A stretch of DNA of 48,235 nt from Chromera velia. Lineage: Eukaryota; Sar; Chromeraceae. Below the pieces are notes generated by a model. The model saw nothing but the letters and a program-made list of their open reading frames with translations, ran no database searches and was not told where the DNA came from. Numbering within the stretch: position 1 is the stretch's first letter; each line of letters opens with the position of its first letter. This document shows positions 3,001 to 25,309 of the stretch, piece after piece. The translations under genes and the position numbers were made by a program. The stretch covers positions 8,150 to 56,384 of the forward strand of contig JAHBMJ010004619.1 of the NCBI GenBank assembly GCA_018398765.1, written 5' to 3'.

Positions 3001-4782
3001 GATGAATGGATGATCTAAATGACTCGTCTTCCTGCGCATTCAATGCATCACTAGCGGATGGATGGATGGATTGTGGAGAGAGAAAACAGGAAGGCGAGGG
3101 AGAGAGAAAAAAGGAAGGACAAGGAAAAAGAGGAAGAGAAACCAGGCCTGTCTATCAGGAGAAGAAAAGGAGGGGAGGGGAGCAGAAAGGGTTGCTTTGG
3201 ACCGGTCAGCCGCCACTCACCATACAAACGCACACACAAAATACACACAGATGGAAAGGCCAGCCAAAGACAACTTGCCTTTCTCTCGTCTCTCTCTCCG
3301 TCTAAGAGACGGACAATGGTAGGCGTTACAGTCCTTTTGCCTTCTTCTGTCAGCGCACTTCGGTAGAGAAAGAGAGAAGGGAGGGAAAAGCATCACAGGT
3401 GACGCAAGCGAAGAGAAGAAGAGAGAAAGAGATTTACGCAAAAGCAACTTACGAACAACCAAGAGCAAAACTTGAAGGCAGGTAGGCAGGCAGAGGAGCT
3501 TCTTTTTCATCTCTCTTCATTCCGACCTCACTCCTTCTCTTCTATCAAGAATGGTTGAGGGCGGAACCCACGAACACGACTACCACAAAAAAGAAAGAAA
3601 GGGGCGGCTCTCTCTTTTTCCTCCACACCGTCTGCTTGCCTGCACGGCGGTGCCCTATGTTTCGCTTTCTGTTTTTTCACGAGTTTCTCCCCCCCTCCCC
3701 CTCTCTGCCCTTCTCTCTTTCTTTTTTCTGGATAGAAAGGGAAGAACGAATGTCGAGAGACATAAGAAGGGGGAGAAAGGGGAAAAGGGAGAGGCGGAGA
3801 CGCGGCATTTTTGCGATGATCTAGTTTCCTTCGCTCCCTCCCGAAAGCCCCTCTTCTCCTTCCATGCTTTGCTGTTTCTTTCCTCCGTACTTTCTTTGAC
3901 CTCGACGGTGGGTCTGAGTCTACTTCTTTTTCTGTTCCCACCAAAGACACAGACAGACACAACTCGCTTGATATGGGGAGGAGCTGATAAAATTCCTCCC
4001 TCTCTTGTTACTCAGACAAAAACAGACACAGAGATGACCAGCAGGAATCCTGGTACTGAGACAGCATCGGAATGCGGACAGAGAGACAGACACACACACA
4101 GACACACGGAAGGACAGGGGGAAAGGAAGGAAGAGGGCAAAAAGAAAAGGAAAGGACGCCTTTTGCCGAGGGTAAAGAAATCGCCACACGTTTTTTTGTT
4201 GTTGCAACCTGCTTCTTGCTTGAAGAGAGAAGAGAAAACTGCATGAGGACAAACGGACAAACGGAGAACACGCGTAGAGACGGGAGCGAGAGCCTTGCTT
4301 CCTTTTCGATCGTGTACGTTCCAGGCTCCCTCTGCCTCTGTCTCTGTTTCAAGGATACCAGCCAGCATGTCGGGTCGAGGTCGAGGTTGGGAAGGGCCAG
4401 CCACAGTGAAGGATAGATGGCGCCCCTTCTCTTTGATAGTCGACTGAGCGGAGAAGGAAATGCTCCACCGTCAGTCAGGCCGTCTCCCTGGCACCTTTTT
4501 TCCCTGCTCGAGGCAGGAAGGAACAGTTGTCTTCACAGACAGACACAGACAGACAGACATGCATCTTCACTCTCTTTCTCTTCCAACAAATCCACAAAGA
4601 CCGGCAGGCAGAAAGTGGCAGGTGTGGGAACACCAACCACCAACCACACGCAGACAATTAACGCAAAATGCAAACAGGTACACGCAGGCAGCAGCAGTCC
4701 ATGCAATCAGGCGTCCCGTTCCAGCCCCCTTCCTCCTTCGCCATCAGCACCCCCCCACCCCACCCCACCCTCTCCTCCTCTC
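1..4782. other. Left flank, simple-sequence rich, no gene resolved
   Basis: Long purine/pyrimidine tracts and TCTG, GGAA and GA repeats dominate. Many open frames here are low-complexity readings of such tracts (Arg/Glu/Lys-rich on one strand, Ser/Phe/Leu-rich on the other), and I do not accept them as genes. Some splice-like junctions on the minus strand (near 1392, 1957, 2031 and 2510) hint at a gene with small exons, but I could not chain them into a recognisable protein. No tRNA, rRNA or conserved domain was seen. The convergent 3' end of the next gene lies at 4783. Confidence 0.5.
1957..2094 (-). CDS. Possible small-exon pair of an unresolved minus-strand gene
   Basis: Read on the minus strand, 2094-2031 is bounded by a ctcag acceptor and a CAGCAG|gtgatg donor. 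1991-1957 is bounded by a pyrimidine-rich ttcttcag acceptor and a CACGAG|gtaggt donor. The two join in phase (first ends phase 0, second ends phase 2) and give a basic, Arg-rich peptide with no recognised domain. The intron between them ends in a 16-bp sequence that is repeated inside the second exon (1972-1987 and 1996-2011). The downstream continuation was not found. This may be chance, and only transcript data would settle it. Confidence 0.22.
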
Positions 4783-7700
4783 TCAGTTATCCACAGGCAC
4801 TGCCCAGTCCCCCCCCGCGGACTGCGACTGTGCCGATCCATCGGTGGGACCTGACAGCATAACCGCATCCTCCTCGTCGTCCTCCACGCAGATGGCGGTG
4901 GCCTGAGACTTGCCCTCATCGGCCCACCTGAACAGGTTATCGTCTGCCCCGTCTCTCCCCTCAGCCGGGGCCCTTGAGTTAATCACCCCGCCGGGGTCCT
5001 TGTCAAGGGTCTCAGGGGGAATCCACCTAGAGCCCTCCACCAGGTGGAGGAACGGACGCTGAGCAAGGTGGCGCGCTGAGTAGCGGCACCAGCCTGTCAG
5101 GCTGTTCTGCGGTGTGAAGAGACGGGTGAGACCCATCTGCTCGGCCAAATTGAACCAGTGGACGGGGCCACGGTTTCGGATGGCCTCCTCCTCCGTCTCC
5201 CCGGGCTCGAGCTTCACCCCCTCCTCCCCTCCTCTCTTCACCCCCATGCAGAACACCCCGTCCACCCCATCACCAAAATTGAACCTCAACATCCCGGGGT
5301 AATTCTCCTCCGCGTCTTTGTTGATCCCCGTGCACTCCAACACTCCCGGAGCTGCACGGAGATTGCCCTCCGCATCGACCAGGACCAGCCTCTTCGCTGC
5401 CTCCAACGCAACAGACTCGGGGTCTTCACCGTCGACATCGATGGGGCCCTGGGAGGCACTGAAGGTGGTGGCGGGGGTGGGTCCTCCTGCCATCTCGACA
5501 TCCTGGGAGGGCTTTCCACCATCCCTCTTCCTCTTTCTGTCAGGGTAGTAGTGGCTGGCCTGCTTGGCCAACACATCGAGGGCGGTCCACTCAGCGAGGT
5601 CCATGGGGATCTCCTCTCTCGGCACAGGCCAAGGGGCAGCGATGAGGCCGAACACCTTCTGCATGTCCTCTGCGCACAGGCCAATGTCCAGGGCCTTCTC
5701 TCCGGACTCCGTCTCGTACACCATCAGGTAGGGCCGCACCCCCTGGAAGGGCCCGCCCATCTGGGGCATCACCTTCATGGCCTCCCGCTCGGCCTCTGAG
5801 TTCGTGGCCGCGGTGGTGGTGCGGAGGGACTCGGCGATCAGTTTGAGAAGTTCGGGGACGCCGTGGGCGGGCAGCGTCTGCTTCATCATCTGTAGGATCG
5901 ATCTCTCACACACACCAGGGGGGAGTGTGGAAGCACACAAGGAACACAAGAAAGAAGAAGGAACAGAGACAGAGAGGGTCAGAAAGACAGCAGCAGCGGA
6001 GAGGGACACACAATGAAGGAAGATATTCAAATACAGATCATCACTTCAATCAAAGAGATGGCAAGGAGATGATGCACGGGAACCGGCACGATCACGAGCA
6101 GACAGAAAACCAAACAAAAAGGGAAAAACTGACTGAGTGAATTCAGGATTATTCGCAGAACGAAAGAATGGATCACGGAAGGGATCCACAGAAAGAAAAA
6201 AAGAAAGACGACGCATAAAGAAAATGAATCCAAGTCTCTCGTCTCACTTCATTTTATTTTACGTGACCAAACTGCTTCAGTTGATTCTTCCTTCGCCGTC
6301 CCCTTTTGCATCTCTTTCATCTCCTTGTGGAAGGAAAATAGATCCCTGCATTTCCTTCTATCTTTCCGTTTATTACCGCCACCTTGTAACGCAGGCGGAC
6401 TTCGAGGAAAGTGAGTGCATCTTCTTTCCCTCCTTCCTTCTTTCCCTCCTTCCTTCCTTCCCTCCTTCCTTCCTTCTTTCCCTCCTTCCTTCCTTCCTTC
6501 CCTCCTTCCCTCCTTCCTTCCTTCCCTCCTTCCTTCCTTCCCTCCTTCCTTCCTTCCTTCCTTCCTTCCTTCCTTCCCACATCCGCACACGACTTCTTTT
6601 CCTTTCTGCTTTCCCTTTCCCTCCTCAGCTTCGTCTAACTAACCCCCCCACCCCTCCACCTACCTTGTGGAGTAGGCAGAGTCTGTGGCAGTGCAGGGCG
6701 ACGATCACCCTCTGGATTCTCTGTGCCCTCAGCGTCTTCTTCCTGTCGTCCAGGGTCTCCAGGGTGAACTCGTATCGGTATCTGCAGAGAGAGAGAGAGA
6801 GGGGGGNGGGGGGGGGGGGGGGGGACAGGTCGTCCTGTGATATGAAGAGAGAAGGAAGCACAAGACGACCCACGAAAAAGCATGCACCCACAGCCTGAAG
6901 GTGCTTCACCGAGGGACTTCTGTGTTTCTCCTTCCTTCTCTGTTTCTTCTTTCTTCATGTCTGTGCAAAGTGAGTGAGTGCACTCAAGTCAAGTCAGGCA
7001 AACACAACATAAGCTGCGGCGATGGGAAGAGAAAAGAAAAGAAGTCGGGTTCACCGTTCTCACCCGTTGACGCAAGTCGACGTACGTCAATTCATCTTTC
7101 TACACTCTCACTGACCGGCTGGCTGCCTTGCTGGCAAACTGACTTTTTGGGAAGGCAGTAGGGTGCGATTCTCTGTTTGATTTTTTCTTCTCGTGGGAAT
7201 CTCCAGAAGTTTCGCTTGATGCCGTTCTGCTCCCCGAGCTGCACGCGCTTGTCGAGCCACGCCCTGAGTCCCAACGTCCCGTCGACCTCAAAGAAGGACC
7301 TTGCGAACCTGACCACTGTGTTGGCGCCCTCCTCCACCTTCACGAGCGTCTCTCTCTGTGCCCCACTCGACCACTCCTCGGGCCCGTTGCCCTTCCAGGA
7401 GTGCATTGCGAAACAGAAGTCGAAGCCCGAGGAGGCCAAAAGACTCTGCAGAGAGGAGACGCCTGTGCTTTCCTGAATGGCAAACATGGGGGCGATGTAG
7501 TTGCCCTGCTGTCCGACGAGTCTGCAAACAACCCCGAAGGGAGGGGGGGAGGGAGGGAAGGTTGTGTTTGTACGGAAGAGACGGACGAACCTCCACATTG
7601 CAAGAGACAGAGAACCAGGAAGAGAGAAGCCCGCTCGGTTCGTCTGAGGGGCACAACAAAGTATCTGAAAATATGAAAGTCCCTTTACACCTCACAGAAG

Positions 7701-9647
7701 GCACAAAAACTGTCTCCCCTTCACCAAAAGGAACAAGCGCAAAGGGGGAAGGAGAAAGACGGACGGAAACGACCGAAAGATTCATGCCGAGAGACTGGAA
7801 ACAAGAAAGAAGCTACTCACCCCACACCGCCCTGAGTGTAGAGATCCACTGTCCGAAGCCACGACTCGATTTCTGCCATCCACGCGAACCCGAAAGTTGA
7901 CTCCGCTCTAGTCAGCGCCAGGCACACGAAGAACGCCAACAGGAACCTGCACTCACTCAGACACACACAGAGAGTCAGGGAGGGAGGGAGGGAGGGAAGC
8001 AATTATGTGGGCAATGCCATCCAGAACACTGTGGAAGGACAAGAGTAAGAGAACGAGAAAAAAAAAGAATGGAGAGCCATCAACACACACAACACAACAA
8101 CAGAGTGACAAGAATCACCATTCCGTCATGTTCCTCTATCTGCCTCTTTGGCCCTTTCCCCCGCGCCCTCACTGCACCCCCTCCTTTCCTGCTGACTCAC
8201 TCACTCACTCACTCACCGTCCTTGTTCTCTCGTCAGATCTCTCGTCTGAAGTGTTGTGGTGAGGCCGGGCTGAGAGAAGAGATTCTTCAAATGGGACCGG
8301 GACCCAGAGGCACCTCCGCTGGTCCCCTTCACTACCACAGAGGCCTCTGTAGATGTCGTCTGGTTCCTCCCCTGCTCGTTCTTGTAGTTACCCCCGTACC
8401 CTGCACCCTTGTTCTCGTAGGGGCGATTCTGACGATACTGCGCACCACCACCTCCATAGCCTCCACCGCCGTATCCGTTCGCGCGTCCGTAGCCGCCGCC
8501 ACCACCGTAGCCGCCACCTCCAGAACGGTTGTAAGGTCCTCTGGCATTGTCGTAGTCATGCCTGCGTCCCCCTCCTCCTCCGCCTCCCCCGTACGGATGC
8601 GCCCTTCTCTGGTAGTTGCTGTAGTTGCCTCCCCTGTTGTACTGAGACCCTCCTTTGTAACCTCCGGCGTTCCCTTGCTTGTGGTCGCCGTTCTGCTTGG
8701 CGATTGAGGTCGCACTCTTCACTTGCTGAAGGAAGGAAGGAAGGCACAGGAGGGGGAGAAGGAAGAAGGGAGGGAGGGAGAAGTAGTGAGAAACGGCAGG
8801 GACATCTCAAACAGAAAGCTCTTCTACCTTACACAAGAGAGAAGGGCAAGAAACCTTCTTTTGCCTCTTTTTCCAAAGGGGTGTCCCGGTCTTCGTGTCG
8901 AAAAGCAAAGAACGAATGCTTGACTGAGGTCTCACGACAGTCGAGAGAGGGCAGAGGGACACCAGGCAACCAAACGAAACAAAGAAAAGCACAAGGCAAA
9001 ACAGAGACTGGCTCAGCAAGTAAGAGGATGTCAAAAGGTCACAGAAGACAGGGCCCTCTCTTTACACAGAGTGCGGCAGGAAAGGCCACTATGAAGGAGG
9101 CTAAAGTCTGGTTTCCCCCCTGCTGACAAACGACAGACGGGAGGCCAAGAAAGACTTCCAAGAGGCAGAGACGAGAGAGGAGACTGGAGACTGGACAGGA
9201 GACTGGGGGGAATTTTCAACTGTGGAAACTGCACAGAGACTGCCACGCCTGGCAAGGTGAAAAGAGGGAAATGAAGAAGCAAGAGAAAGGGCAGCAACGA
9301 CGGACAGCGCCTCCAACGTCTTCCCCATCGGAATCGGAAAGAATGTCTCCTTGGTCCCTGAGGTAGTAGAACCTTTTCTTGAGGTACTCCACTTTTTCCT
9401 TCTTCGTCTCAAACGGAGTTTTTCCCTGCAAGAAAAAGGGGAAAAGAAAAAGGAATGACGAATGTCTACACAAAAGCTCATCAGGGAAAGAAAATTCAAC
9501 CAATGAGACAAAAAGCAGACCGTAGTTTTCAACAAGAAAGGAGAAAATGTTTGTCTCCTCCACACAGAAAAAAAAATCAGAGACACGCTCACAAAAAGTT
9601 TCACAAAAAGCCTCTGACTGCGTGAACAAACTGACTCCTCTTTTCAT
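4783..9647 (-). CDS. Unrecognised Gly-rich, acidic-tailed protein (7-exon model)
   Basis: Minus-strand model, all phases compatible: 9647-9636 (MKRG), 9425-9306, 8725-8217, 7946-7821, 7521-7144, 6781-6664, 5889-4783 (stop). About 789 aa. The order of features is: a basic N-terminus; a SIM-like acidic motif DILSDSDGED; a Gly/Arg/Tyr-rich RGG-like region (third exon); a hydrophobic stretch FLLAFFVCLALT (possible membrane segment or buried helix); a conserved-looking globular part; a KRKR basic cluster near 5521-5538; and an acidic C-terminus with ICVEDDEED. Two psi-K-x-E SUMO consensus motifs occur: VKVE (7332-7343) and VKLE (5206-5217). I do not recognise the family. The third exon's donor is a (gtga)n array. 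The start and the end of the second exon (gttgga at 9317 is an alternative donor) are the least certain parts. It is transcribed away from the SUMO ligase gene at 10456. Confidence 0.6.
6418..6577. repeat. (TTCC)n microsatellite with TCCC variants
   Basis: About 160 bp of imperfect CTTC/CCTT units lie in the last intron of the 4783-9647 gene. They create several long fake frames (Pro/Ser/Phe-rich on plus, Lys/Glu/Gly-rich on minus) that are not genes. Confidence 0.9.
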
Positions 9648-10455: not shown

Positions 10456-12315
10456 ATGAATCTGGACGACTTGGTAAGTTGTTTCTTTGATCTCTTTGTC
10501 TCATCCTGGAGAACTAAATTTGGGAATTCTGCACTTTTGTGCAAATCAAAAGAAGTCATTTGAATGGATCAGCAGCCGTCTCTGACGGAGGCCAGTCCAG
10601 GCAGGGCTTTTTCTCTTTTGCTTCTGCCGCTGGAGTAGTGTAGCTGTCGTCTTGTGACTTTTCTCTGATCAGACATGCATCTGGCAATGCCACTTTCGTG
10701 CACCTTCTTTCAATGACGACCACCTGCACTGACTCTTCCCCGTCTCCCTTCTCCTCTCTCTTTCTCTCCCTGTTCCGGGTGAATCGACCGTCCCTCCAGT
10801 GTCTCTCTCTTCTTTTGTTCCCACTTGCATTGAATTCCTTGAAGGCGGCAGTCAACTGGACTTGCCACCCGCCAGCTTTCCCATTCGTCAGACTGACTCT
10901 ATCTATCGAAGTGCACAGCCAAGCGAACTCATCCGTGTGCCTGTCTGCCTGCCCCTTGTGTGAGAGCAGGATAGAATTCCAGCCGAAGAGCAACTCCAAG
11001 ACCTGATGCACATGTTCTCCTTCTTTTCGGGTGCCCAGACCACCAGTGGGGGTGGGGGTGGGGGCGACAACGTTAGCGAAGTCCAGGAACAACCCCCCTC
11101 TGCTGCCCTCGGGGGTCAGCCCTCTTCTGCGGCTGCCCCTGCTCACGGGGGGGGCGGCAATGGGCAGGGGGGCGGGCAGGGGACCAGGCGGGAGGGCGGA
11201 GGCAGAGACGCGAACCGGGGACAGGGAGGAGGTACCCGAGGTGGGGGCGGTGGAGGTGCCGGTGGGGGGCGGGGGGGCCGAGACGAGGAAGACGGCAGCG
11301 ACAGAGATCCCCCTTCCGATTCTGAGGAAGATTTGGAGTCGGAGGAATCTGAATCCGAAGATGAGGAGGGGGACGACGGGTACCTCGGAGACGGAGTCTA
11401 TAAAGTCGAGGTAGGTAGGTGGGTGCGTCTATAGAGTGGGTGGGTCCTTGAGATGGCAGATGTGACCCGGAGGAATGAATGCATGGTAGAAACTGCACCA
11501 CCACAGAAAATGCACATCAGCAGAGCAGGCGGGATCGTCGGCTGCTTGTCCGTTCCCTTCTCTGGCTGCTTTTCTTCCGAGTATGATCAACCGTCGACGT
11601 CCCCCTCCCCCCTCATCTGACTGATAACCAGGAAGGAAGGAAGAAAAGAGAGAAGGGCAAACGAGCAGATGACTGAATGAATCAGGTTGGGGTTGCTGCT
11701 AGGAAAGCACAGTCTGCCTGCCTGCCTGGGTGTGCAGGCACCCCTCCCGTTCCCTTCCCTTTCCTCCGTCCTTTGGGCTGGCTTTCCAAGACAGCAGTGT
11801 GCACAGGGCGGGTGCGGGTGCCAGTGTAGAAAATGAGAATGCGGTTCGGTGCGTGTACACATCCATTGATCTTATGTATGGGTCTCTGTCTGTTTGACGG
11901 AAAGAGTGGAATGACTTCTTTCATGCATGCAGAACCTACAAGGGTACAAAAAGCAATACAATTCGACTACCAACAAACTAGAGGACTCCTACTGGGTTAA
12001 GTGGAAAGTCAGTGAGTGAGTGAGTGAGTGAGTCAGTGGGTCTACCTGCCTTTGTCTCTCTAAGTGCCTTTCTGCCCTTTTGTCTGTTTGCCCCCCTTCT
12101 TTTGTCTTCCGTCAACGCAAAAAACCTCTGGTCTTTCGGTCTGTTTGTGAAGGACGAAAAAAAAAAAAAAAAAAAAGGTCTGCCTGTTTGTCCGTTGGCC
12201 TGTCTGTCTATCTTTTTGGATATCCCTTTGCAAGTCTGCATTTTTGTCTATCAGTCAGTATGTATTCGTTCATCTGTCGGTCTGTCCGTCCCATGTATCT
12301 TGTTCTTTGGTTCCT

Positions 12316-12379
<64 letters not shown>

Positions 12380-13454
12380 CGTGCGTGCTTGTGTGTGTGC
12401 AAACTCTGCATGCAGGGGTATTCCGAATCCGACAACACATGGGAGCCCCGGGCAAACATCCTGGCCTTTCCCGAGTGAGTCGGGGAGGGAATCTGTTCAA
12501 TGATTTAGGTAGAGGGAGAGGGAGAAAATGAGAATGGGGGAGTGACTGAAAAAGCTCGAAAAGTGCAGCTCCTTGTTGCGTCTGTCTGTCCGTCCGTCTG
12601 TCCGTCCGTCTGTCTGTATGTCTGTCTTCTGAAAGAAAAGAAGAGAAAAAGGAAGGAAAGGACGATATAGTTTGTCTCGGTGTCTTTCTGTCTATCTTTG
12701 TTTCTTTCTTTCTCGGTCTGTCTCCAATTCGCTTCACTCATGCCCTCTCCCCCCCCCGCCATCTGTCTTCACGATGCTTCCTCTCAACTTCCGTTGTCCC
12801 CGGGGCCACTTCGAACACACTGACAAGTTCAGCCTGCATTGACTCACGTGCGTCTGGGTTTTCTTGTCTTTGTAGCTTTGGATGAGTCAGGACGAAAGTA
12901 GATGAGGTGAAGTCTTTTGTCTTCTTCTTGTTCAGGTCGAAGGTAGAGGAGGTGAAGGCTTGCTACCGGGGCAAGAAGAGGTTCAAGGAGAGGGAATCGT
13001 GGGTGAAGGAACGTCTGAAGAAGGGCAAGAAACTGCCGGTCAGTGCGTGCGTCAGTGAGGCAGAGATGGAGGCAAGCAGGCAGGGAAGCGGGAAGGCGGC
13101 CATGCAGGCAGTCGGAAGAGTAAGCGAGGAAATTGGAAGGTTGGGAAGGGGCAAATAAGGAGAACAGCGCGTGTCCGTTTTGCCGCCCGGTGGCTCCTTT
13201 TTTCTTACTGGCGTGAAGGTCCAAAAAGTGCACAACGAAGACGAAATGGGAGAGAGCCAAGAAGGGCACTAGGCAGGCAGGCACGGAAGAAGGAAAGACG
13301 GAAGTGAAGAATACAGGAGAGAAAGAAGACAGCTAAGGAACGAGCAAGCCAGCAAGCAAGCACGAAGGAAAAAAGAAGGGAAGAAAGAAAGAAAGAAAGA
13401 AACAAACAAACAAACAAACAATTAAAGAACGAAAGAAAGGAAAAAAAAAAAGGA

Positions 13455-13485
<31 letters not shown>

Positions 13486-13654
13486 GAAGGAAGGAAGAAA
13501 GAAAAAAAGAAAGAAAGAAAGAAAGAAAGAAGGCAGGACGGAAAGAAAGAAAGAAAGAAAGAAAGAAGGAAGGCAGGACGGAAAGAAAGAAAGAAAGAAA
13601 GAAAGAAGGCAGGACGGAAAGAAAGAAAGAAAGAAGGAAGGAAGGCAGGACGGA

Positions 13655-13686
<32 letters not shown>

Positions 13687-16600
13687 AAAAGAGAGAGAGA
13701 GAGAGAGAGAGAGAAACAAAGAATTAAAGAAAAAAAAAGGAAGAGAGGCAGAAAGACAAACGTGCAAACATTCCGGACAGACGGACGGACGGAAGGTGCC
13801 TTCATGCATACAGAATGAACAGATGAAGGACAAGAGCACCAGCTTGAACCTGAGAATCATCTCTCAAGATATATAAGTAAATGCATGACCCACAACACAT
13901 CTTTACGTGAATGGACCAATGCAGAAAGCGTACATCGATGCCGACCCAGGGCTAGCGGAATTCCGGAAGAAGTGCCGCAGCAAGAGGAAGCGGCAGAGTG
14001 ATACGTCCTATCGTAAACTAGAAGCGCGGCGATCTGAGGAGAAAAAAAGAAGGAGCGGTTTCTTTGAAAGCCTTATGGCTGCGTCCAGAGGGGGGAAGCC
14101 AAAGAAGAAACATGGTAAAAAGAAAGACGACAAAAAGCGAAAAGAAAGGGAAGGGCGTCTGCTGAAAAAAGGTTCAACGAAAAAGAGGAAAGCGAAGGAT
14201 ATGACTTCTTCTTCCTCTGACGATGACAGTGACTCCTCAAGTGATGCAGCATCTGATTCCTCCCGTTCGGTCTCCTCCTCTCGTTCCGTCTCGGAGAGGG
14301 AGTCAGATTCAGATTCGGAGATGTCCCCAGAGGCATTTGCGAGGAAGGAAAGAAAGAGAAGAGAGAAGGATCTCAGAGACAAAAAGAGACGAGGCAAAGA
14401 GAAAGAGAAAGGCAAGAAACTGAAGAAGCGACCAGAGAAAAGAGCACGAAAAGATCACACCAGGGACAGAGAGAGGGAACAAGAAGGCTCCCGACGCCAC
14501 CGCACAGAGAGAGAGAGGGACTCAGGTAAGTCCAGCGGAACGTCCATTCATCGTCTCTCCAGACTGACTGTCCCCCTACCAACGTTCAGACAGACAGACA
14601 GACAGACAGACAGGCAGGCAGGCAGGCAGGAAGGAAGGAAGGAAAAAAGGCCAATGCAGGGCAGGGCGAAGCGTGAGACAGATACTACAGCGACTCACTC
14701 TTCTTCGCGTTCCTTCATTGACCTCTCTTCACCGATTATCCTCTTCGTCTAGTGTAGTCTCTTATCCTTCCCTCCCTCCCTTTGTCTCTCTTTTTCTTTT
14801 TCTCCTCTCCTTCAATCTATCCTCTCTCCCTGCAGTCAATCAACCCCCAATTGTCTGTTCTTTCTTTCTTTCTTTGTACTTCCTCTGCAGACCCGCCATC
14901 TTCGTCCTCTGCTTCGGCCTCTGCATCCGCTTCGGCTTCCGCTTCAGCGTCGGCCTCCGCAGGAGCAGTCAACAGGGGGCTCCAGGGCCCCCAACAGCTC
15001 CCGAATTCCTCATCGTCTGCCTCTGCCTCTGCGGCTGCGGCTGCGGCGGCGGCAGCCAATGGGGGCGGCGTGAACGTGGCAGCTGGCGTGAACGGTCAGA
15101 GCTCCATCGGCCACTTGAGCTCAATGTCGTCCTCCCTCCCGGACCCTGAGCAGGACGACGAGTGGCCCACGTGCTCTCCTCTCAAGTTGGAGCGCAGGGA
15201 GACCAGGCAGAAGTTCAGCGACAAGTTCTCATGCATCTGTCCGCAGGTGGGAGGGAGAAGAAGGGGGGGGGGGTGTCGAGAGCATGCAAGCGAGAAACAA
15301 AGAGGAAAAGAACTGGAAAAGGACGGGTTTGTTGGTGTGTCTGGCTGTGTGTGCGTGTTCGTGTGAGGATGGTTTGTGGGGAGTGTAGAGAAGACTCCTT
15401 TTTTTCGCTTTTCTTTCTCATTTGTCCTTTCAGGTTCCCCTGGTGACCTCACAGGCATATCAGGCGTTCATCGACTACTTTGAGAAGACAGAGTGGGACG
15501 ACATGGTAGCTGGGCAAGACAGACTTGGTGTTTCTTTCTTTTCTAAGCTCTGCTCTCTGCTTAATTTCGTTTTGAGTCTGTCTTCCTGCTTTCTGCTTTC
15601 TTTCTCCCTTTCTTCTTTTCCGTTTTCTTCTCTTTCCGGCTCTCTTTTCTTGTGTGTTCCATTTTGGCTCTTTTGATTTCTCTTTTTCGCTCTCATTTTA
15701 CGGCTTTCTTTGCTCTGCTGGTTTGCTTGCTTCATTTCCTTTTTCCTGTGCCCTCCGCCCTCTGCCCTTTGTGTACGTGCGAGACAGAGACTGTGTGTAT
15801 GCGTAGATCTACGCTTCTGTGTGTCTGTATCTGTCTGCTACGCGCATGCGGAACCCTCGAGGGGGGTGCACCTCTCTCGTACCCCCATTATTGTTTCTCC
15901 CAAGGAAGGGGGGGACGGAATGGCAATTCCCTCTCATGCAGTCTGCATGTGCGTTTGCTGAATTGCCTCAATGCCTGCCTGCCTGCCTTCCTGCCTGTGT
16001 GTGCTTGCGTGGATGCATACAGCACATCGTCAAGTGTCTCACCTGCCGCGCCGTCAAGCACGCCGACTGCCACCTCCAGTGCATTAACGTGAGTGAGTAA
16101 GTCAGCCAGAGGGAGCCGCGCTCTCTCTTCACATGCAGCCAACCGCCCGCCTGCCTGCCTCTCTCTCTCTCTCTGTGCTTCCTAACCCGACCCGATGTCT
16201 TCTCTTCTCTCTCTTCTCTTCTCTTCGTGCACATCTACAGGAAGGAAGGAATTAAGGGGGGGGAGGGAGGTGGATGCATCAATGAAGAAAAAAAGTAAAG
16301 CGATTGATTTCTGCCTGGGTCTTTCTTGCGCTCTCTCTACCGCTTCTCTGTTTGCCGCTAGTCGACAGCAGAAAAAATCATTTCGCTCGGATCCTTCCTT
16401 TCCTTTTTTCTCATTGATACGGAAAGAGAGATCACACATGCCTTCCGACAAAGCGAAGCACTAATCAAATGCACTTCCGCAGACAGCAATCTCCCTCTGC
16501 TTCACAAAACATAAAGACAGACAGACAAAGAGACTGACTGATTGAGAGAAAGGGAAAGTGGGAGCAGATCCAGTCGCGTCCCTTCCCTCCCCTCCCTTGA

Positions 16601-17476
16601 TCGAAAAATTGGACCAAGAGACCAACCTATACACCTGCCTGACGCACGCACGCATGCCCATACACTCACTCCCTCGCGTTCATTCATTACAGGACGGAAG
16701 GAACCTCGAGAATGTGCCCCCGCACTATCTGGAGACGATGGCACGAATCATCAAACACACATTCAAGTGCCCCACGTGCAGAATCTTCGAGACGGTCGGT
16801 CAGTGAGTTGGGTCGTTGGTTATTTCTACCTATCCTTCTCGAAAGACAGGCAGAAAGGGCGAACGTGCGTGCATTTCTTCTGTCGGGGTCCGTCAGCTCA
16901 CAACTCCCCGTTCTCTTTCCTCAGCCTGTCTTCGTTCGAAGAATTATTCAAGGCACTGTGCGACGACAAGTCACTCTCTTGCGGAGAAAGACTCTCTGGT
17001 GCTCATGCACTTTCTTGTTTTTTTTTCTTTTACGAAAGTGAATGCACACGTCGTTCTCCTTCCTTCCCTTCATTCCTGCAGGACCCTTTGAGTCTAGTCA
17101 CAGAGGTCTTCTTTCATACAGAAAAAGAATTCTGCAAAAACGCATGCAAAATTCCTGCAGGACCCTTTGAGTCTTGTCACAGAGGTCTTCGCGTTGAAGC
17201 TGGTGACCGCCGAGATGAGGGGTCCTTCTACAAGGGACGGGTACCGGAACATTTTTTTGAACCTGGAGAGACACGCGTTCGAGTCCGCAGCCACCCAATT
17301 CAACTGCATCCAGCAGGGCGCGCTGGCAGCAGCCCAGACCGGAGAGGAGCACTCGGCCACGCCTGACCACCCCCTGCCTGACCATCCTCTGATGGACCCC
17401 ACAAACAACAACAGGTGGAGCAAGGACGGCCTGGCGTTGGAGGATTTTGCCCCGGATAAGCTGGGTGCGTGTGTGT

Positions 17477-17513
<37 letters not shown>

Positions 17514-17521
17514 CGTGCGTG

Positions 17522-17552
<31 letters not shown>

Positions 17553-20525
17553 AGAGGGATTAAGAAATAAACTATGATGCATTCATTCATTCAATTATCG
17601 AGGGAAGGGACGGGAGAATTGATGGCACTTGCAGTACAGCGTGGAGGAAAATATGTGGCATTTTTATTTGTGTGCGTGTACACATGCGCGCACGCCCTTG
17701 GTTGCTTGCGCTGGTTTACCAGAGACCCTCTACAAGTCGAGACGAGACGACAGGGTTCCTGTGGGGGGAGCACGAAGGAAAAAGGAGAGAGAAAGAGAGA
17801 GAGACTGCTGCAGATGCGAGCAGACGTTTTGTCCGTGCGCAGAAAGAATGGACGGCCCCCGCGACCAGACATGCAGGCAGGCAGATGATTTGTACCGGCA
17901 TGATGATATGCTTGAGCAGTTACCCGTTTGTGCTTGTTGACTCGTCCCTTGTAAATCCGTCCTTCCTTTCCTTTCCTTTTTCACTCTTGTCTGTATCTGT
18001 CTGTGGCTGTTCCTGCGTGTGTATGCATGGATGTGCAGAGTCTGTGGAGGTCCGGTGCGTGAGTGTGGACCCGGACCCGAGGAAAGAGTGGCCAGAGCAC
18101 AGATGGCCCGCAGCAGGGAAACTCTGGGTGAGTTTGTGGGTGCATNNNNNNNNNNNNNNNNNNNNNNNNNNNNNNNNNNNNNNNNNNNNNNNNNNNNNNN
18201 NNNNNNNNNNNNNNNNNNNNNNNNNNNNNNNNNNNGGGGGGGGGGGGGGAAGGAGAAACAGAGCGCTTGCGCTCTGACTTATTTTCTTGCTTTTCCTTTT
18301 TTTCCCCCCCGTCTTTCTGTCTGTCCTTCTCTTTCCTGTTTTGCACCGTGATTGATTGCCTTCCATGCATAGGTCCTCTCGGATTCTGCGGGTGACTTCA
18401 TGGAGGAATGAATCAACTGATTGGTCTTGCAGTCAGAATTCTCTATGATGGACTGGTTGGGTCTCTCACGCTCTCTTCTTTCTCTTGCTTCTTGCCATCC
18501 TTCGCTCTTCTTTCTTGTCATGTGTTTTCTTTCTTTCTTTTCAGTTCCGCATCAGAGTGATGAACAGACAACAGCGGAGCTTTATGGCCAACGTGAACCC
18601 GTGCGTGGTGGATTTCTCTGAGCCGGCCCTGGTAGATCAACACGGAGACAAAGATGGAGTTTTCCCTGAACTCCTGGCGAACCATCTGAACAGGTCTCTC
18701 TCTCTCTCTCTCTCTCCCTCTCTCTCTCTATCTCTCTATCTCTTTGTGTGTGTCTCCGCCCTCATGCGTGTCTCTGTCTATCTGTTTCGCGTGCATGTCT
18801 CTCTCTTCGTTCTCTTCTCTCTGCGCGTCGAAGCAATGAATGAAGGACCTTCTCTCCCCCCGCCCCAGGGGAAAGGTTTTTTCCCCACAAAAATCTTCAC
18901 GCGGAATGTTGCACTTCACCTTCTGACCTGAAGGACAAAAATTTCGACTGCACACGTGCGTCTGGATGGATGCTGAAGGAAAATTAAGAAAAATGAACTT
19001 CCAGGCCTGCCTTCACTCCCCCCACCCATAGACGCCTGTCTCCCTGCCTGCCTGCAGAAGAAAAGACACGCCCCTGAACCTGGGCCATTGCCTCAAGGCG
19101 CAGGCGCACACGATGTCGGTATTCAGTACAGTGAACTCCCGTCCTTTCAAACTGGACGCGGCTGGCAACCCTGAGGTGGAAATACGGTGCACCAGCTTCG
19201 GGGTCCGTTTTTTTTATTTTCATACAGAATAAATGCATGTATAAGAATAAATGCATGCTGAGGTGGACGTGCGATGCAGCAGCTTCGGGTCCGTTTTTTT
19301 TGTGCGTCTTTCTCTTTCTTTATCTCCTTTCTCTACCCATTTCTGTTCATGTTCAGCTCTGTCTCTCTTATGTGTGTTAGGATGTGTGTGCGCGTGTCTC
19401 TCTCTCGCAATTGCGTTCGTTTGTTGCAAATGACGGAATAAAAGTTGGCCCAGAAAAGAGAAGAGAAGAGAGGAGAAGAGGGGCCTTGCTCAGAGAATGA
19501 CGAGACCTCCGAGGGAGAAAATGTCATGAGGGGATTTTCCCGTTGGTTCGTTGTCTCTCTCTCTCTCTCTCTCTCCCCGTCTACCAATATAGCCTTCCGC
19601 ATTTTTCCGTCTCTGTCTCTGACGGCATCGAGTTGAGGACAAGAGAGGGAGGAATTCCTTCTTCCTTCCTGTTTTCTTTCCTTCAGTCTCTCTCTCTCAT
19701 CGTTTCAACCTGTCAATCCACCCATCTCGATCTGTCTGAAAGTGCTGTCCAGTCCGATCAAACACTACTATTCCGTCCTTCCCTCTGTGCCTGCCTGCCT
19801 GCCCATGGTCGGAATGGACTTTCTTTTGTTTTGCATAATTGCAGATGAGGGTCAGAGAGGACCCCCCAGTGGCTCCCTATCCCTCAGGGAAAGCGGTGGC
19901 GGCCATTGCGGGGAAACCCTATGGGAAGGGCTACGGGTGGGTAGATGGGTAGTGGGGTGGTGCCAGGGTATTCCTTCCACAGGGTCGACAGAGGATCGCA
20001 TGTGTGAGGGGTGGTTGTTCTGTGGGCGTGAGGTTCGATGTGTGCTCCCTCTCTTCCTTTTTTTTTTTTCTTTCTGTTTTGTCTATTTGTGATCCGAATT
20101 GATCGCCTTGCGGGTGTGTTCGCACCCCTCCCTTCCTTTTATTCTGACATGATTCTGCTGGCAAAGACACACACCGAAGCTTTGTCCTGATGCATGCCAT
20201 GCAGGTACGTTGTAGCGGCAATGGCCACAACAAAGAAGACGGTGGAGGAACTGGCAGATCTGGTCGTGCAGAAGGCCACAATGCCTCTTGACGTAGCAGA
20301 ACAAGTTGTCAGTCCTCCCTTAATTCTTCTCTTTTTTTTGTTTATTTCTTGCTCCTTCGATTCTTTCTTCTGCTTTCTTCAGTTGCTTTTGTTTTCATCC
20401 TCGTTTCTTTCTTTCGTTCTTTCGGGGTCGTTTGATGAGCAAATCTCGGGCTCCTTGGATGTGTGGATGTATGTGCATTGGGACGGTGAGATGGATGGAA
20501 CAGGATACGGTGGTCTGTCCGATCT

Positions 20526-20556
<31 letters not shown>

Positions 20557-20798
20557 GTGTTCATTTGATCTCTCCCTCCCTTTCTGTGTGTGTTCAAACC
20601 GCTGCCTACCGCACTTACAAAGACAGAACAAAGATAACATTGTGATCTTTCCAAGTCGAATCACTGCATCTGCCCTAGCTGCAGGACCTGGATCTGGTGG
20701 CAGGCACAAACCAACAAGACGAGGACGCCGAAGTGATGGTCGGTGGGGGGATGGGGGGGGGGAGTGAAGGGGTGTGCGCCTTGACTTTCTTTTTCTGC

Positions 20799-20829
<31 letters not shown>

Positions 20830-23800
20830 GNGGGGGGGGGGGGTTGAGATCCAGCGAGGGCTGAGTGAGAGAGAGTCTCCGTTGCCCCCTGCAGGCTGTC
20901 TGTCTTTCATCCGAGTGACTTCATGAGGGGCCTCTTTATTCCTTCCTTCCTGGCTGCGTTTCCTGTTCTGTCTGTCCCTTTTCTTTCTTTCTTTCTTTCC
21001 TGTCTCTCTCGTTCCCTTTAGCCGTTGGTTGATCCTCCGAGGGGCTGCTTGCTCGACTGGTTGCATGACTGCATGCAGGAGATTTGTATTCGGGAGAATC
21101 TGAAGCTGAAAGATCAACTGGTAGGGGGCAAGATTCGCACTCCCGTCCGGACTTTCAAATGCAAGTGAGTGAGTGAGTGAGTGGATTACTGCACCATTGT
21201 GTAGAGAAGCAGGGAAAGGGAGGGTTAGAGGGGGGAGAGGAACAATGGTTTTGTTTTGAAGGGGTTCGTTTTGTTGAGAAACCTGAAGAGACGTCACGTT
21301 TTTCTTTTTTCGGGAATCCTGACGGTATACAGACGGAAGAGGAGGAACGGAAGAAATCGAAAGAACAAAGGGAAATGAATTAAAGGATGACACACACACG
21401 GTTTTGTTGGTTTTTTTTTTTTTCATTCTCCTAGCTCTCTAAATTTGAGGCCCTTTCGACTTTCATCATCTCATCCTTTAGCTTATTGTTTCTTCCTTCT
21501 TTTCTTCCCTCCCTGCCTGCCTGCCTCAATTCTCTCTCGTCTCCCCTCTCTCCCCCCCGCAAATCCAAAGCAATGAAGTCGTCTTGCATGTCCTCACTTT
21601 CTGTCTTCTGTATCTCTCCTCTCTTTTGCCCTTCTTTTCTGGCAACCCCTCGCCCTTTGGCTTGAATTCTCTTTCTTTCTCTCTCTCTCTCTCTGTTTCT
21701 CCCCATGTATGTGAATACATATGTGTATGTGTGTGTGTGAGTGTGTGTGTATGTGTGTGCAGACATGTCAATTGCTTCGACCTTCACAGCTTCATTGCCG
21801 TTGGGAAAGGAATCAAGTCAGTACTTTTCTTTTGAGTCAGACGGATAGTTTGAGACGGTCATCAAGAACATCAATGCCCTTTAGAGGGAGAGACAGAGAG
21901 AGGGAGAAGGGAGGGGCGATTGTGTGCGCGGTCTTCCTTTGTTGCTCTATCTGAAGGGAGGAAGACGAGGAGGACTTTATGACTCTTCTTTGATCCTCCA
22001 GAAGCATTCAATTTCCTTTCGTCTTCCTCGGATTGCAGACATTAATCAAAACTTTATCCTTCAGCCTCCTTCCCTCCGTCCCTCTCTGTGTTGCGGCGTG
22101 CCGTGGACCCATGTGAAACTTGTGCATGCATATCGATATGCATCCATGTTAGTTTGTATGTGTCTATGTACCCCCCCTTTGCATTCGTGAGTGCAGGCCC
22201 GGCTCCTCCGTGTGGCAGCAGAAGATGACGCCCCTGGTTGCCTCGCGACTCCAGTGCCCCGTGTGCCACATAAAGGTTGGCAGGGAGGTAGGGGGGTGCA
22301 GGGGGTTAGGGTGCTGTGGGGGTCTCTGTCTGTCTCCCCCCTTTGTCCTCGTGTATCGATTCTTTCCCGATTGCCTTTGCGACTTCAGGTCTGCGATCTT
22401 TATGTTTTTTTGTTAAGTGAAGGAAGAACGGATACGCTTTTCTTGACGCTCAGTTGCAATTCTGCTGTTCTGGTGAGGAGGCAAAAAAGGGAAAAGAGGA
22501 ATGCGTGCAGGTGCGTGACCTCTCCGAACTGTTTGTGGATTCCTTCGTGATGGAGATCCTTCGGCAAACCAACGAACGGGAAATTGGGGTCAGTCGTTGT
22601 GCCTGGTTTTCTCTTCTGAAGATCTTATAATTTGGATCTGTCTGTTGTGGTGTCTCATGAGGGTCTGGACAAGTTTTCTTTTTGCGTTTTTGTATGTGAG
22701 CTCCATTTATTTCTGCGCCGGGGAGTGAGCATTTGCTTTTTACCCCTGGTTCTCGGAGTAGGACGGTACAGAGTGCTTTGAAGCCGAATCCTTTCTGTCA
22801 ATCCAATTCTGCTTTTCCTTTCTGGACTGTTCAATAAATATTCTTCAAGACGATGCAGTCTCTGTGACACGAAAAAAGAGATCGGAGAGCAGACTGCATG
22901 CGGTGTGGTGTGCTCACTTTGTCTCTCTCTCTCTCTGTCTCTCTCTCTCTCTTTTTATGGGAAGTCGTGGAAGTCCGTTCGTGTTTGCCTGCCTGCCTGC
23001 CTTCCTTCATGGCTGCATGGCTGTATGGCCCCTCGGCTTGTCCCTGCAGGTCCTCCTGAAGCCCGAGAACCGAGGCCAGCCAGGAGCGAAGCTTTGGGAG
23101 GTGTGTCTCTGTCTGAATGACGTTCATGTGTTTCTTCTGTCTCTTTGGCTTTTTATGCTGCCTTCATGGAGACAGAGAGAAAAGGCATCGATTGTTGTGT
23201 CCTTTAATTTCCGCTATCTTCCTTAAGTCTTTCTTTTGTTCTTTCCCCCTCCCCCTCTCTCCCTCCCGCTTCCCGGACAAGCTCCCAAGCTCTCTTCTTT
23301 CTTTTCTATTCTCTCTCCTGCAGGTCTCAGAGAGAGAGAAAGACGAGCACATGAATGGTCAGTCAGCGAGTCAGTCAGTCAGTCGGTCAGTCAGAGAGCG
23401 AGAGAGTCAGTCAGTCACTCAGTCAGTCGGTCAGTCAGTCAGTCAGTCAGAGAGTGAGCGAGTCAGTCAGTCAGTCAGAGAGTGAGCGAGTCAGTCAGTC
23501 AGTCAGTCAGCGAGTCAGTCAGTCAGTCAGTCAGCGAGTCAGTCAGCGAGTCAGTCAGTCAGTCAGTCAGTCAGTCGGTCAGTCAGTCAGTCAGTCAAGT
23601 CCCTCTTGTGAGAGGGATGAATTGAGAGGGAGGATTTGTCGGATGCCTGTTGCGGTTTTGAATTCGTATACTTATTCTCTCTTTTTCTCTTTCTCTCTCT
23701 GAGCATGTGTGTGGGCGCGCGCAAGTGTTGAAAATACGTGGGTGTTTGGCCGTTCGGAATTGATTCCATTGTAAGTGCACATGCGGAAGACGAGACACAA

Positions 23801-24076
23801 ATTTCACTCAGCACGTTCTCCTATTTAAAAAAACAGAGAGCCACAGAGAGACAGAACAAAAGCGACCTATCTTTCTGCCGGTGTCCAGAGCGTGAGTTCC
23901 AACGAAGTCTTGTGACAGTCGTGTACCTGGAGTGTGTGTCTCGGCCCCTTTCTTCTTTCCCATGCCCTAGTTGTCTCCCTCTCTCTCTCCGTGTTGCTGT
24001 CCTGGATGCATGCAGTGGACTGACTGATGGGTCGCGCGAGCTGTACGAGGGAATCGACGAGGAAGAAGAAAAATAA
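10456..24076 (+). CDS. Chromodomain-PHD-PINIT-SP-RING protein, putative SUMO E3 ligase (SIZ/PIAS type)
   Basis: Exon model (plus): 10456-10473, 11039-11410, 11933-12007, 12416-12474, 12936-13038, 13925-14525, 14891-15246, 15434-15505, 16023-16088, 16693-16794, 17161-17464, 18039-18127, 18545-18693, 19058-19202, 19845-19936, 20205-20307, 20685-20738, 21022-21164, 21763-21816, 22197-22275, 22511-22588, 23050-23100, 23324-about 23360, 24016-24076. Nearly every junction keeps phase; about 1,090 aa. Order: Gly-rich and acidic N-terminus, chromodomain, Lys/Ser linker, PHD, PINIT, SP-RING, short acidic tail. PHD-PINIT-SP-RING is the plant SIZ1 layout, where the SP-RING recruits SUMO-charged UBC9. 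The SAP domain usual in SIZ/PIAS was not seen; a chromodomain stands at the N-terminus instead. Expected to be nuclear and chromatin-bound. Uncertain points: first exon (an ATG at 11006 is the alternative), a 90-N gap at 18146-18235 that may hide a PINIT exon, and the last donor. Confidence 0.8.
11393..12474 (+). other. Chromodomain of the SUMO ligase gene, split over three exons
   Basis: The domain starts with GVYKVE at the end of exon 2, continues through the 25-codon exon 11933-12007 ending YWVKWK, and finishes with GYSESDNTWEPRANI in exon 12416-12474. This matches the canonical pattern (YxVE ... YLVKWKGY ... NTWEP..N). The three aromatic-cage positions of HP1-type methyl-lysine readers are all present: Tyr of VYKVE, Trp of KWK and Tyr of GYS. 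Exon phases are 0, 0 and 2, and the next exon (12936) restores Glu then SKVEEVKACY. A basic, helical-looking stretch rich in Lys/Arg/Glu follows. Methyl-lysine binding is inferred from the cage only. Confidence 0.88.
13384..13735 (+). repeat. (GAAA)n-rich purine tract
   Basis: About 350 bp of GAAA units, with a 20-odd bp block containing aaggcaggacgg interspersed about four times and a GA run at 13689-13714. It lies in the intron before the Lys/Ser-rich exon. It is the source of long fake Phe/Leu/Ser frames on the minus strand. Confidence 0.9.
13925..15180 (+). other. Lys/Glu-rich and Ser/Ala-repeat linker exons of the SUMO ligase
   Basis: Exon 13925-14525 (601 bp) encodes KAYIDADPGLAEF, then an almost uninterrupted charged region with KKKHGKKKDDKK, a Ser/Asp run, and RDREREQEG. 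Exon 14891-15246 opens with alternating Ser-Ala repeats and an Ala run, then a conserved-looking stretch leading into the PHD finger. These look like a disordered linker with several nuclear-localisation-type clusters and possible SUMO-acceptor lysines. The exon joins with phase 1 at 14525/14891. Confidence 0.75.
15232..16794 (+). other. C4HC3 PHD finger of the SUMO ligase, over four exons
   Basis: Zinc ligands in order: CIC (end of exon 14891-15246), CLTC and HADC (exon 16023-16088), and CPTC (exon 16693-16794). Exon 15434-15505 supplies the loop between the first and second pairs. This gives the full Cys4-His-Cys3 set. The residues after the last pair, RIFET|DPLSLV, match the CR...DPF continuation typical of plant SIZ1 PHD fingers, which ties it to this family and not to a generic PHD protein. 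All four junctions are phase 0. In plant SIZ1 the PHD binds methylated histone H3 and helps orient E2 or substrate. Binding specificity here is unknown; the conserved Trp of many H3K4me readers appears to be replaced by Lys/Ala before the His. Confidence 0.8.
17072..17190 (+). repeat. 40-bp direct duplication across a 3' splice site
   Basis: 17072-17111 and 17151-17190 are 39/40 identical and offset by 79 bp. Each copy carries attcctgcag followed by the first 30 bp of the PINIT-region exon (GACCCTTTGAGTCT...). The downstream copy is in frame with the rest of the exon (DPLSLVTEVF). The upstream acceptor shifts the frame, because 79 is not a multiple of 3. Confidence 0.9.
18146..18235. other. 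Assembly gap (90 N)
   Basis: A run of 90 N followed by a G homopolymer lies inside the SUMO ligase gene, just after the donor of exon 18039-18127. Single N bases also interrupt G runs at 6807 and 20831. The gap could hide a PINIT exon. Confidence 0.99.
19171..19299 (+). repeat. Direct duplication across a 5' splice site
   Basis: 19171-19213 and 19258-19299 are diverged copies of an exon end plus its donor (ctgaggtgga...agcttcggg, then tccgtttttttt). The first encodes VEIRCTSFG and the second VDVRCSSFG. The first has four G before tccg and the second has three, so the two donors leave different phases. Confidence 0.8.
21022..22588 (+). other. SP-RING (MIZ) zinc-binding domain of the SUMO ligase
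   Basis: Exons 21022-21164, 21763-21816, 22197-22275 and 22511-22588 give ICIRENLKLKD...RTPVRTFKCK, HVNCFDLHSFIAVGKG, a VWQQ segment, then SRLQCPVCHIK and VRDLSELFVDSFVMEIL. The Cys-x-His-x2-Cys-Phe-Asp-Leu and Cys-Pro-Val-Cys motifs are the SP-RING zinc site of PIAS, SIZ and MMS21 SUMO ligases. The hydrophobic helix after CPVC matches the DGLFMEIL/VDPYFNRI element that follows SP-RINGs. The segment after it, EREIGVLLKP (22511-22588 into 23050-23100), parallels the SIZ1 EVTEIEVKPDGSW strand. All zinc ligands are present, so the domain should be functional. Confidence 0.88.
23355..23597 (+). repeat. (GTCA)n array at the 5' end of the last intron
   Basis: About 240 bp of gtcagtcag units with gagc interruptions begin directly at the exon end ...CACATGAATG. 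Every gtcagt in the array resembles the donors used elsewhere in this gene, so the exact splice site cannot be fixed by eye. Using the first donor (phase 1) ends the protein after four more bases (Val-Asp-stop). Using a phase-2 donor inside the array joins to the acidic tail ending DEEEEK at 24076. Confidence 0.8.
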
Positions 24077-25309
24077 GAAAAGGAAAGAAAAGGAAACAGC
24101 ATGATGAGTGGCAGGGAATGAGGAAGGGGGGATCGAGAGTTTTCCTCTTTTTTTTGCAGACAGAAGGAGGGAGGGAGGGAGGGAGGGAGGGAGACGGAAA
24201 AGGAGGAGAGACACTCGAGTGAGACAGGCAATGCTCTTCCATCTTCCTTCCTTCCTGCCTTCTTTCCTTTTCTTTGTCTCTCTCTTTTTCTTCTTCTTCT
24301 GAACCGTGTGCCACCACCGAGAGAAGGAAGGCAAGAAGGGAAACACCGACAGGAGGGGACAGAGAGTGAGGAGAAAATGTACAAATATTATCTGGACAGA
24401 CAGACAGACACACAGGTGGAGTGAGAGGCCGGTCAGCTTTTTGTATTAATGAACACAGCAACCCCGGTCCTCGTTTTTTCTCTCTTCTCTGTTGTGGGTC
24501 TGCCAAGATGTCCTCATCTCATCTCTCCTGATGGCTCTCTGTCTGTCTGTCTGTGCATAGATTGTCTCTGGATGGGTGAAGGGGGAATGCATGGGAGAAG
24601 TGTTTGCTTCGTTCTGCGTGAGCGTGGAAATGGAAAGGGCTGACGGAAATGCTGGAGGCACCTTCTTGGATCATTGACCTTTCCCTGTTGCAAACTTTCC
24701 CTCTGGTAGCATGGAACAAAGCAACGATGGATGCGCGGCTAAGTTGGAACTTGGAAGAGGGGTTGTCTGAATGTATATCTCAATGTATCTCTCACACTGT
24801 AAGCGATGGACTTGTTCTCTGCACCGTCTTACTTGTACTGCATGTCTGTCATTGATCGAGTGACTGAATGAACACGGACAGTCCATGGTGTAGCATCGAT
24901 GTCTAGATCGATGTATGTATCGATGCCCTATTTAATTCTAGATTTACTTGTTCTCGGTCCTGCATGCATGGTCTTTCTCAGCCTGTGTCAGTCGCAACTT
25001 ATTAGATTCAACCACATGGAAACCGCTTCAAGCTGCATGATGCATCGCAAGAATGTATATTGTTCCGATAAAGCTTTCGACTTGATCGATCATATATGCC
25101 AAGAATGGAGCCAGTTATATGTATATACATTTATAAATGTCACTAGAAATGTCATCAATAAAAAAAAAGGTTGTACTTCAATTAAGGTACAAAGCCTATA
25201 CGGTATACTGCGGTACTTGGCAGGGGTCGAGGCCGAAAAAATATTTAGTAAAATACGGAAAATACTAGGAAACTAGCTAGGAAAATATCATAATAGTAGT
25301 AGTATAATA
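24077..25309. other. Intergenic, 3' flank of the SUMO ligase gene
   Basis: Contains GGAG and TTCC repeats (24160-24300), then progressively AT-richer sequence with ATCGAT-type palindromes (24890-24925). Presumably holds the 3' UTR and poly(A) site. No gene, RNA or domain was seen. Confidence 0.6.

Follow-up and report, generated by a model that had tools for sequence, protein, structure and literature searches.

The question raised by this stretch of the Chromera velia genome is whether a chromodomain and the parts of a SIZ/PIAS-type SUMO E3 ligase, encoded at 10456-24076 on the plus strand, belong to one gene, as an initial annotation had proposed, and what such a protein would do. The window, that is, the whole stretch of DNA analysed, covers 48,235 nucleotides (nt) of contig JAHBMJ010004619.1 (C3580 in the genome searched). 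We give a probability of roughly 70% to a single gene encoding a second, diverged SIZ1-type SUMO E3 ligase that carries a chromodomain at the position of the SAP domain. Joined by script, the 24 exons of the final gene model (Table 1) form a single open frame of 1037 codons plus a terminal stop, with GT-AG ends at 23 of 23 introns and consistent phases. In this frame, the chromodomain, the PHD ligands, and the SP-RING follow one another in order, and both the cage residues of the first and the zinc ligands are present. The interval from chromodomain to PHD is free of Ns, as a run of them (18146-18235) lies inside intron 12 and a lone N (20831) inside intron 17; the end of the model at 24076 fits. 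Pfam, PDB, and homologue results for this protein were obtained with the first gene model or with pieces of the protein, rather than with the final model as a whole.

The chromodomain is encoded across exons 2-4, with its tail in exon 5. Pfam Chromo scored 33.6 bits on the whole first model (E 3.6e-8; cut-off 25.1) and 36.4 bits on the N-terminal piece, covering profile positions 13-44 of 53. A PDB sequence search with this domain returned 22 sequences at E ≤ 0.001 (E 5.1e-5 to 9.1e-4), headed by CDYL, CBX3, SUV39H1, and HP1, and the alignment showed extra residues between strands 1 and 2. Residues Y127, W154, and Y157, which we take to be the aromatic methyl-lysine cage positions, are present, so that the proposal of a chromodomain with an intact cage holds. 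The gene resembles HP1 and CDYL in these Tyr-Trp-Tyr positions, and differs from them in that a SUMO ligase part is attached and that, at E ≤ 1, the first full model gave no Chromo_shadow hit. In work on dinoflagellate histones, no clear HP1 homologue was reported from a Chromera transcriptome, which the authors considered most likely a false negative (PMC4751559).

An alternative that concerns origin more than function, and that we consider rather improbable, is that the chromodomain is of Ty3/gypsy-type retroelement origin and may direct the protein towards elements of that kind instead of towards a general histone mark. Chromodomain matches in the genome number at least 150 (of 554 candidates, 150 were scored, each above the cut-off), many of them in long open frames and probably belonging to retroelements. 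The family search overlooks domains split by introns, and its Chromo list does not include the chromodomain of this gene. In addition, a retroelement is present in the same window at 37117-38700 on the plus strand, with a CCHC-type knuckle seen by eye and an RVP_2 protease match of 29.9 bits (cut-off 20.3). However, introns interrupt the chromodomain studied here, which also has an insert, and its closest other genomic match by E-value has 31% identity (E 0.0018).

The yardstick for the ligase part comes from the same genome (177,833,721 bases in 4040 contigs), in which a zf-MIZ profile search gave two matches, on contigs C1610 and C896, and did not list the gene of the window. The gene on C1610 (locus 15000-24900), modelled in 12 exons at 1458-8853 of that locus, is, judged by its sequence, a conventional plant-type SIZ1 with the order SAP-PHD-PINIT-SP-RING, and the best comparison available here. 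Its Pfam scores, with cut-offs in brackets, are 44.7 bits for SAP (23.9), 28.9 for PHD (24), 19.2 for PINIT (27), and 56.9 for zf-MIZ (33.5). In PDB it comes closest to PIAS2, PIAS3, Siz2, and Siz1; the 25 sequences at E ≤ 0.1 include 2rsd, a SIZ1 PHD structure, as a match to its PHD. PHD precedes SP-RING in this gene as in the SIZ-chromodomain gene, and the intron positions of the two differ by eye, which fits an old divergence.

The SP-RING of the SIZ-chromodomain gene has all four zinc ligands (C917, H919, C956, and C959), matching the Cys-His-Cys-Cys set reported for SIZ1 (PMC11371177), and it retains the VDSF..EIL end. The zf-MIZ profile (cut-off 33.5) scored 38.9 bits on the isolated SP-RING piece, 34.3 on a 380-residue piece, and 25.2, below the cut-off, on the first full model. 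Of the seven PDB sequences at E ≤ 10, four belong to yeast Siz1 (5jne, E 0.0013; 3i2d, 0.014), Siz2 (6u75, 0.0067), and PIAS2 (4fo9, 0.18), the other three being unrelated by name. Aligned with the SP-RING of the C1610 SIZ1, the domain scored 89, a value reached by 0 of 1000 shuffles. The PHD has its eight ligands in order (C524, C526, C557, C560, H565, C568, C600, and C603) followed by DP at 609-610, and keeps the SCIC start, the Trp ahead of the second pair, the C-x2-C-x4-H-x2-C core, the final C-x2-C, and the DP continuation. It is assigned because the PHD of the conventional SIZ1 aligns with it, at a score of 52 that 1 of 1000 shuffles reached. PHD and SP-RING thus read as SIZ-like, and the SIZ/PIAS affinity, the C4HC3 PHD with its SIZ1-type DP, and the full set of SP-RING ligands that had been proposed for this locus are all borne out, the PHD without a Pfam match.

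Compared with plant-type SIZ1, including the C1610 gene, the predicted protein shares the order of PHD, DP continuation, PINIT-like stretch, and Cys-His-Cys-Cys SP-RING, and its PHD and SP-RING can be aligned. It differs at the N-terminus, where a chromodomain and long Lys/Ser and Ser/Ala linkers take the place of SAP, in the inserts within PHD and SP-RING, and in a PINIT that is not recognisable statistically. The spliced first model had no SAP match at E ≤ 1. The genomic SAP list showed none on the gene's contig either, and the same list missed the intron-split SAP of the C1610 gene, so that a split SAP outside the model may have escaped it. The idea that the chromodomain replaces SAP therefore gains force, since the conventional SIZ1 carries SAP at this place and the first model has none at that threshold.

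Several results weigh against this interpretation. The one-gene model is read from genomic DNA alone, its splice sites were picked by eye, so that the statistics on these sites are not independent, and both splice sites of intron 14 are weak. The PHD gave no Pfam PHD match in the first full model or its pieces, and no PDB PHD match, its sole PDB match at E ≤ 10 being an alanine racemase (E 0.11). For PINIT, no Pfam match was obtained in the 380-residue piece; the alignment score of the PINIT-like stretch with the C1610 gene was reached by 248 of 1000 shuffles, and that of a narrower piece, in ten runs (five gap settings, local and global), by 118-847 of 1000. Searches of a large protein set found no homologue for residues 505-982 at E ≤ 0.001 (7998 candidates scored), for the SP-RING alone at E ≤ 10 (79 candidates), or for the chromodomain at E ≤ 0.01 (21 candidates). 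So few word-sharing candidates for common domains suggest that this set is almost without eukaryotes, which makes these negatives uninformative. Searches for Chromo_shadow and Pre-SET, which matched nowhere, controls included, are likewise uninformative.

Of the initial domain assignments, the profile search recovered, above the cut-offs, Chromo in the spliced protein and zf-MIZ on pieces only, and neither PHD nor PINIT. The Pfam PINIT model misses its cut-off even in the conventional SIZ1, and the PINIT family search of the genome gave a single match, below the cut-off and not at this gene. We infer a PINIT domain from the expected position of the stretch and from a handful of motifs recognised by eye (RV.NR after Pro, KD.P....LKA), so that the PINIT-like strands of the initial annotation keep their place and motifs without a statistical counterpart.

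The same divergence bears on whether the protein is still an enzyme. A single gene whose SP-RING no longer works as a SUMO ligase, the protein being a chromatin adaptor, is unlikely in our estimation. Relative to the C1610 SIZ1, the SP-RING is without the earlier 'CP' Cys and has 13 additional residues ahead of QCPVC, PINIT is not recognised by the shuffle statistics, and the conventional SIZ1 could do the SUMO ligase work in the same genome. However, the four zinc ligands and the characteristic end of the domain are all retained.

That the chromodomain and the SIZ parts form one gene is quite likely, and we infer that one transcript would cover both. The introns, phases, and single frame favour this part of the initial proposal, and intron 5 is its weak link. 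With 886 nt, this intron is the second longest of the 23. Sites were ranked, with the first gene model, by the share of the GT or AG sites of the region scoring equal or better, which is 2.8% and 7.9% for intron 5 and 1.4% and 3.2% for intron 6. Within intron 5, a long purine-rich GAAA/GGAA repeat extends over 13300-13740 on the coding strand.

Two neighbouring genes on the same strand, one for a small chromodomain protein of exons 1-5 and the other for a SIZ-like protein, make an improbable alternative, to which the length of intron 5 lends some weight. Read past its donor, exon 5 stays open until a stop at 13156, and at 0.39 bits per codon this stretch scores like coding sequence (exons ranged from -0.20 to 0.49, and intron windows averaged -0.28), and the in-frame ATG at 13919, just ahead of exon 6, could start the second gene; both observations count against a single gene. 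However, another frame of the same read-on stretch scores higher (0.56), and the plain repeat of intron 5 is also high (mean 0.53), though not its last part (mean 0.29); codon scoring could not settle intron 5 because the region is purine-rich. The ATG at 13919 belongs to an ATGCAG abutting exon 6, and the same hexamer directly precedes exons 3, 4, 16, 18, and 24. The donor at the end of exon 5 is GTCAGT, repeated shortly downstream, as at several introns here. The pattern GT[CG][AG]GT opens 21 of the 34 introns of the two SIZ genes, intron 5 included (20 of 34 once exon 23 is given its final end), whereas 4651 nt of exon contain it 3 times and 14657 nt of intron body 8 times, a statistic that is not independent because exons were partly chosen by such sites.

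Downstream of intron 5, exon 6 uses mixed synonymous codons, including both Ser codon families, has a low codon score (0.06 bits per codon), and joins exon 7 in phase. The first Ser/Ala tract of exon 7 (21 codons) is invariant at codon position 2 (entropy 0) and has 1.94 bits at position 3, and the second tract has 0.61 and 1.84 bits, respectively; this pattern reads as coding, a mark of selection on the protein. As exon 7 reads as coding and no in-frame ATG occurs between the Ser/Ala tract and the upstream stop at 14755, a preceding exon is needed. A division separating the Lys/Ser exon 6 from the PHD, the case that the initial annotation had named as refuting it, is therefore very unlikely. 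ATG 15124 within exon 7 might be the start of the SIZ part, but the Ser/Ala tract upstream of that ATG reads as coding, and the sites of intron 6 are good and its phase matches. A start exon hidden between 14525 and 14891 would still allow such a division.

Table 1. Exons of the SIZ-chromodomain gene model and intron 5, in window coordinates.
Feature	Positions	Strand	Content and remarks
exon 1	10456-10473	+	start codon of the initial annotation, doubtful; GT-AG join and phase fit
exon 2	11039-11410	+	Gly-rich and acidic tail; first chromodomain strand (GVYKVE) at its end
exon 3	11933-12007	+	middle of chromodomain (cage Trp)
exon 4	12416-12474	+	end of chromodomain (GYSESDNTWEPRANI, cage Tyr)
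exon 5	12936-13038	+	chromodomain tail, basic stretch; donor GTCAGT; last exon of the part possibly a separate gene
intron 5	13039-13924	+	purine-rich simple repeat; read-through stop 13156; ATG 13919; weak link
exon 6	13925-14525	+	linker rich in Lys/Arg/Ser/Asp
exon 7	14891-15246	+	Ser/Ala tract, then PHD Cys 1-2 (SCIC)
exon 8	15434-15505	+	insert of PHD
exon 9	16023-16088	+	PHD KCLTC...HADC
exon 10	16693-16794	+	final PHD CPTCR
exon 11	17161-17464	+	DP continuation of SIZ1 type, linker
exon 12	18039-18127	+	start of PINIT-like stretch (SVEVRC...WPAAGKLW)
exon 13	18545-18693	+	PINIT-like (FRIRVMNRQ)
exon 14	19058-19175	+	PINIT-like (KDTPLNLGHCLK)
exon 15	19263-19288	+	micro-exon beside tandem duplication; preceding intron 14 weak at both ends
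exon 16	20205-20307	+	end of PINIT-like stretch (YVVAAMATTKKTVEEL)
exon 17	20685-20738	+	linker
exon 18	21079-21164	+	start of SP-RING; zinc ligand Cys917
exon 19	21763-21816	+	SP-RING HVNCFDL; zinc ligand His919
exon 20	22197-22275	+	SP-RING: insert, then QCPVC; zinc ligands Cys956, Cys959
exon 21	22511-22588	+	end of SP-RING (FVDSFVMEIL)
exon 22	23050-23100	+	tail
exon 23	23324-23361	+	tail; end 23357 in intermediate model, 23361 in final
exon 24	24016-24076	+	acidic C-terminal end and stop codon

Two exons of the first model were dropped, exon 12 at 18433-18455 for 18039-18127 and a short exon 16 for 20205-20307, because the replacements have stronger donor or acceptor sequences and residues that look SIZ-like by eye. 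The corrected exon 12 supplies SVEVRCVSVDPDPRKEWPEHRWPAAGKLW, with an in-phase junction to FRIRVMNRQ. The sites of exon 1 rank low, 15% of GT and 19% of AG sites being equal or better, and the alternative to its start codon is one of two in-frame ATGs upstream of exon 2 (11006 and 11012), within an extended exon 2. At two places, exon edges are, by eye, duplicated in short tandem copies (17083-17160 and 19172-19290), each with CATACAGAA, which has three copies on the plus strand of the window, all within this gene. The second duplication leaves an 87-nt intron between duplicated AG|GT, a pattern expected from intron gain by tandem duplication. Several introns of both SIZ genes open with tandem donor-like hexamers (GTCAGTCAGT, GTGAGTGAGT, and GTCGGTCGGT), and one intron of the C1610 SIZ1 holds a repeat of CTGACTGA type of about 1.2 kb.

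With these two genes and the C896 match, the genome has three SP-RING genes, a lower bound because the family search misses intron-split domains. The third SP-RING (C896, about 4860-5270, minus strand; zf-MIZ 41.4 bits) lies in an open reading frame without a start codon ahead of it; its description as an intronless protein of 137 residues was dropped for that reason, and the frame more probably represents a single exon of a gene that extends beyond it. Contig C560 has a SUMO-like open reading frame that ends in QEGGAEAR, with QEGG near the end; it was named SUMO by eye, and the Pfam model that found it presumably also accepts ubiquitin.

Among known systems, PIAS and yeast Siz1-Siz2 are similar in their SP-RING and, to our knowledge, have neither a chromodomain nor a PHD; CBX4/Pc2, for its part, has no SP-RING that we know of. 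CBX4/Pc2 does combine a chromodomain with SUMO E3 function in one protein, as predicted here, and differs in relying on SUMO-interaction motifs for that E3 activity (PMC2808386). Five matches resembling such motifs in the SIZ-chromodomain model came from a loose pattern without a control run and say little. In the ciliate Tetrahymena, Chd3 interacts with Miz1, a MIZ/SP-RING candidate SUMO E3 (PMC6562869, a review citing a thesis). There, in a striking parallel, a chromodomain-family remodeller is partnered with an SP-RING protein as two separate chains, where a single one is predicted here, and Chd3 is a remodelling ATPase. A description of a chromodomain-SIZ ligase fusion was not found in the excerpts of open-access literature searched, subscription papers and alveolate protein databases being outside that scope, and the words 'SUMO' and 'chromodomain' are absent from the main text of the Chromera velia genome paper (PMC4501334). 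The genome published there spans 193.66 Mb over 5953 scaffolds and includes about 30 Mb of transposable elements.

In the SUMO E3 ligase reading, the chromodomain, with its Tyr-Trp-Tyr cage, and perhaps also the PHD, would bind methylated lysine and anchor the protein on methylated histone tails, where the SP-RING could position the SUMO-charged E2 (Ubc9). Nearby chromatin proteins would then be SUMOylated, most plausibly favouring repression; that transposons would be the repressed targets, as initially suggested, is a guess. SUMO ligases of animals and fungi reach heterochromatin via partner proteins. Tentatively, this SIZ1 paralogue, its SAP anchor swapped for a chromodomain, may represent a new class of SUMO ligase that writes SUMO at methylated histones, so that in a retroelement-rich genome H3K9- or H3K27-type methylation would lead straight to SUMO-dependent silencing with no need for separate adaptors. 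If true, such a natural reader-writer fusion would be an evolutionary hint that methyl-histone reading and SUMO writing belong together. It would also provide a compact tool for asking whether reading a methylated histone suffices to direct SUMO to chromatin, with the normal SIZ1 of the same genome as a built-in comparison.

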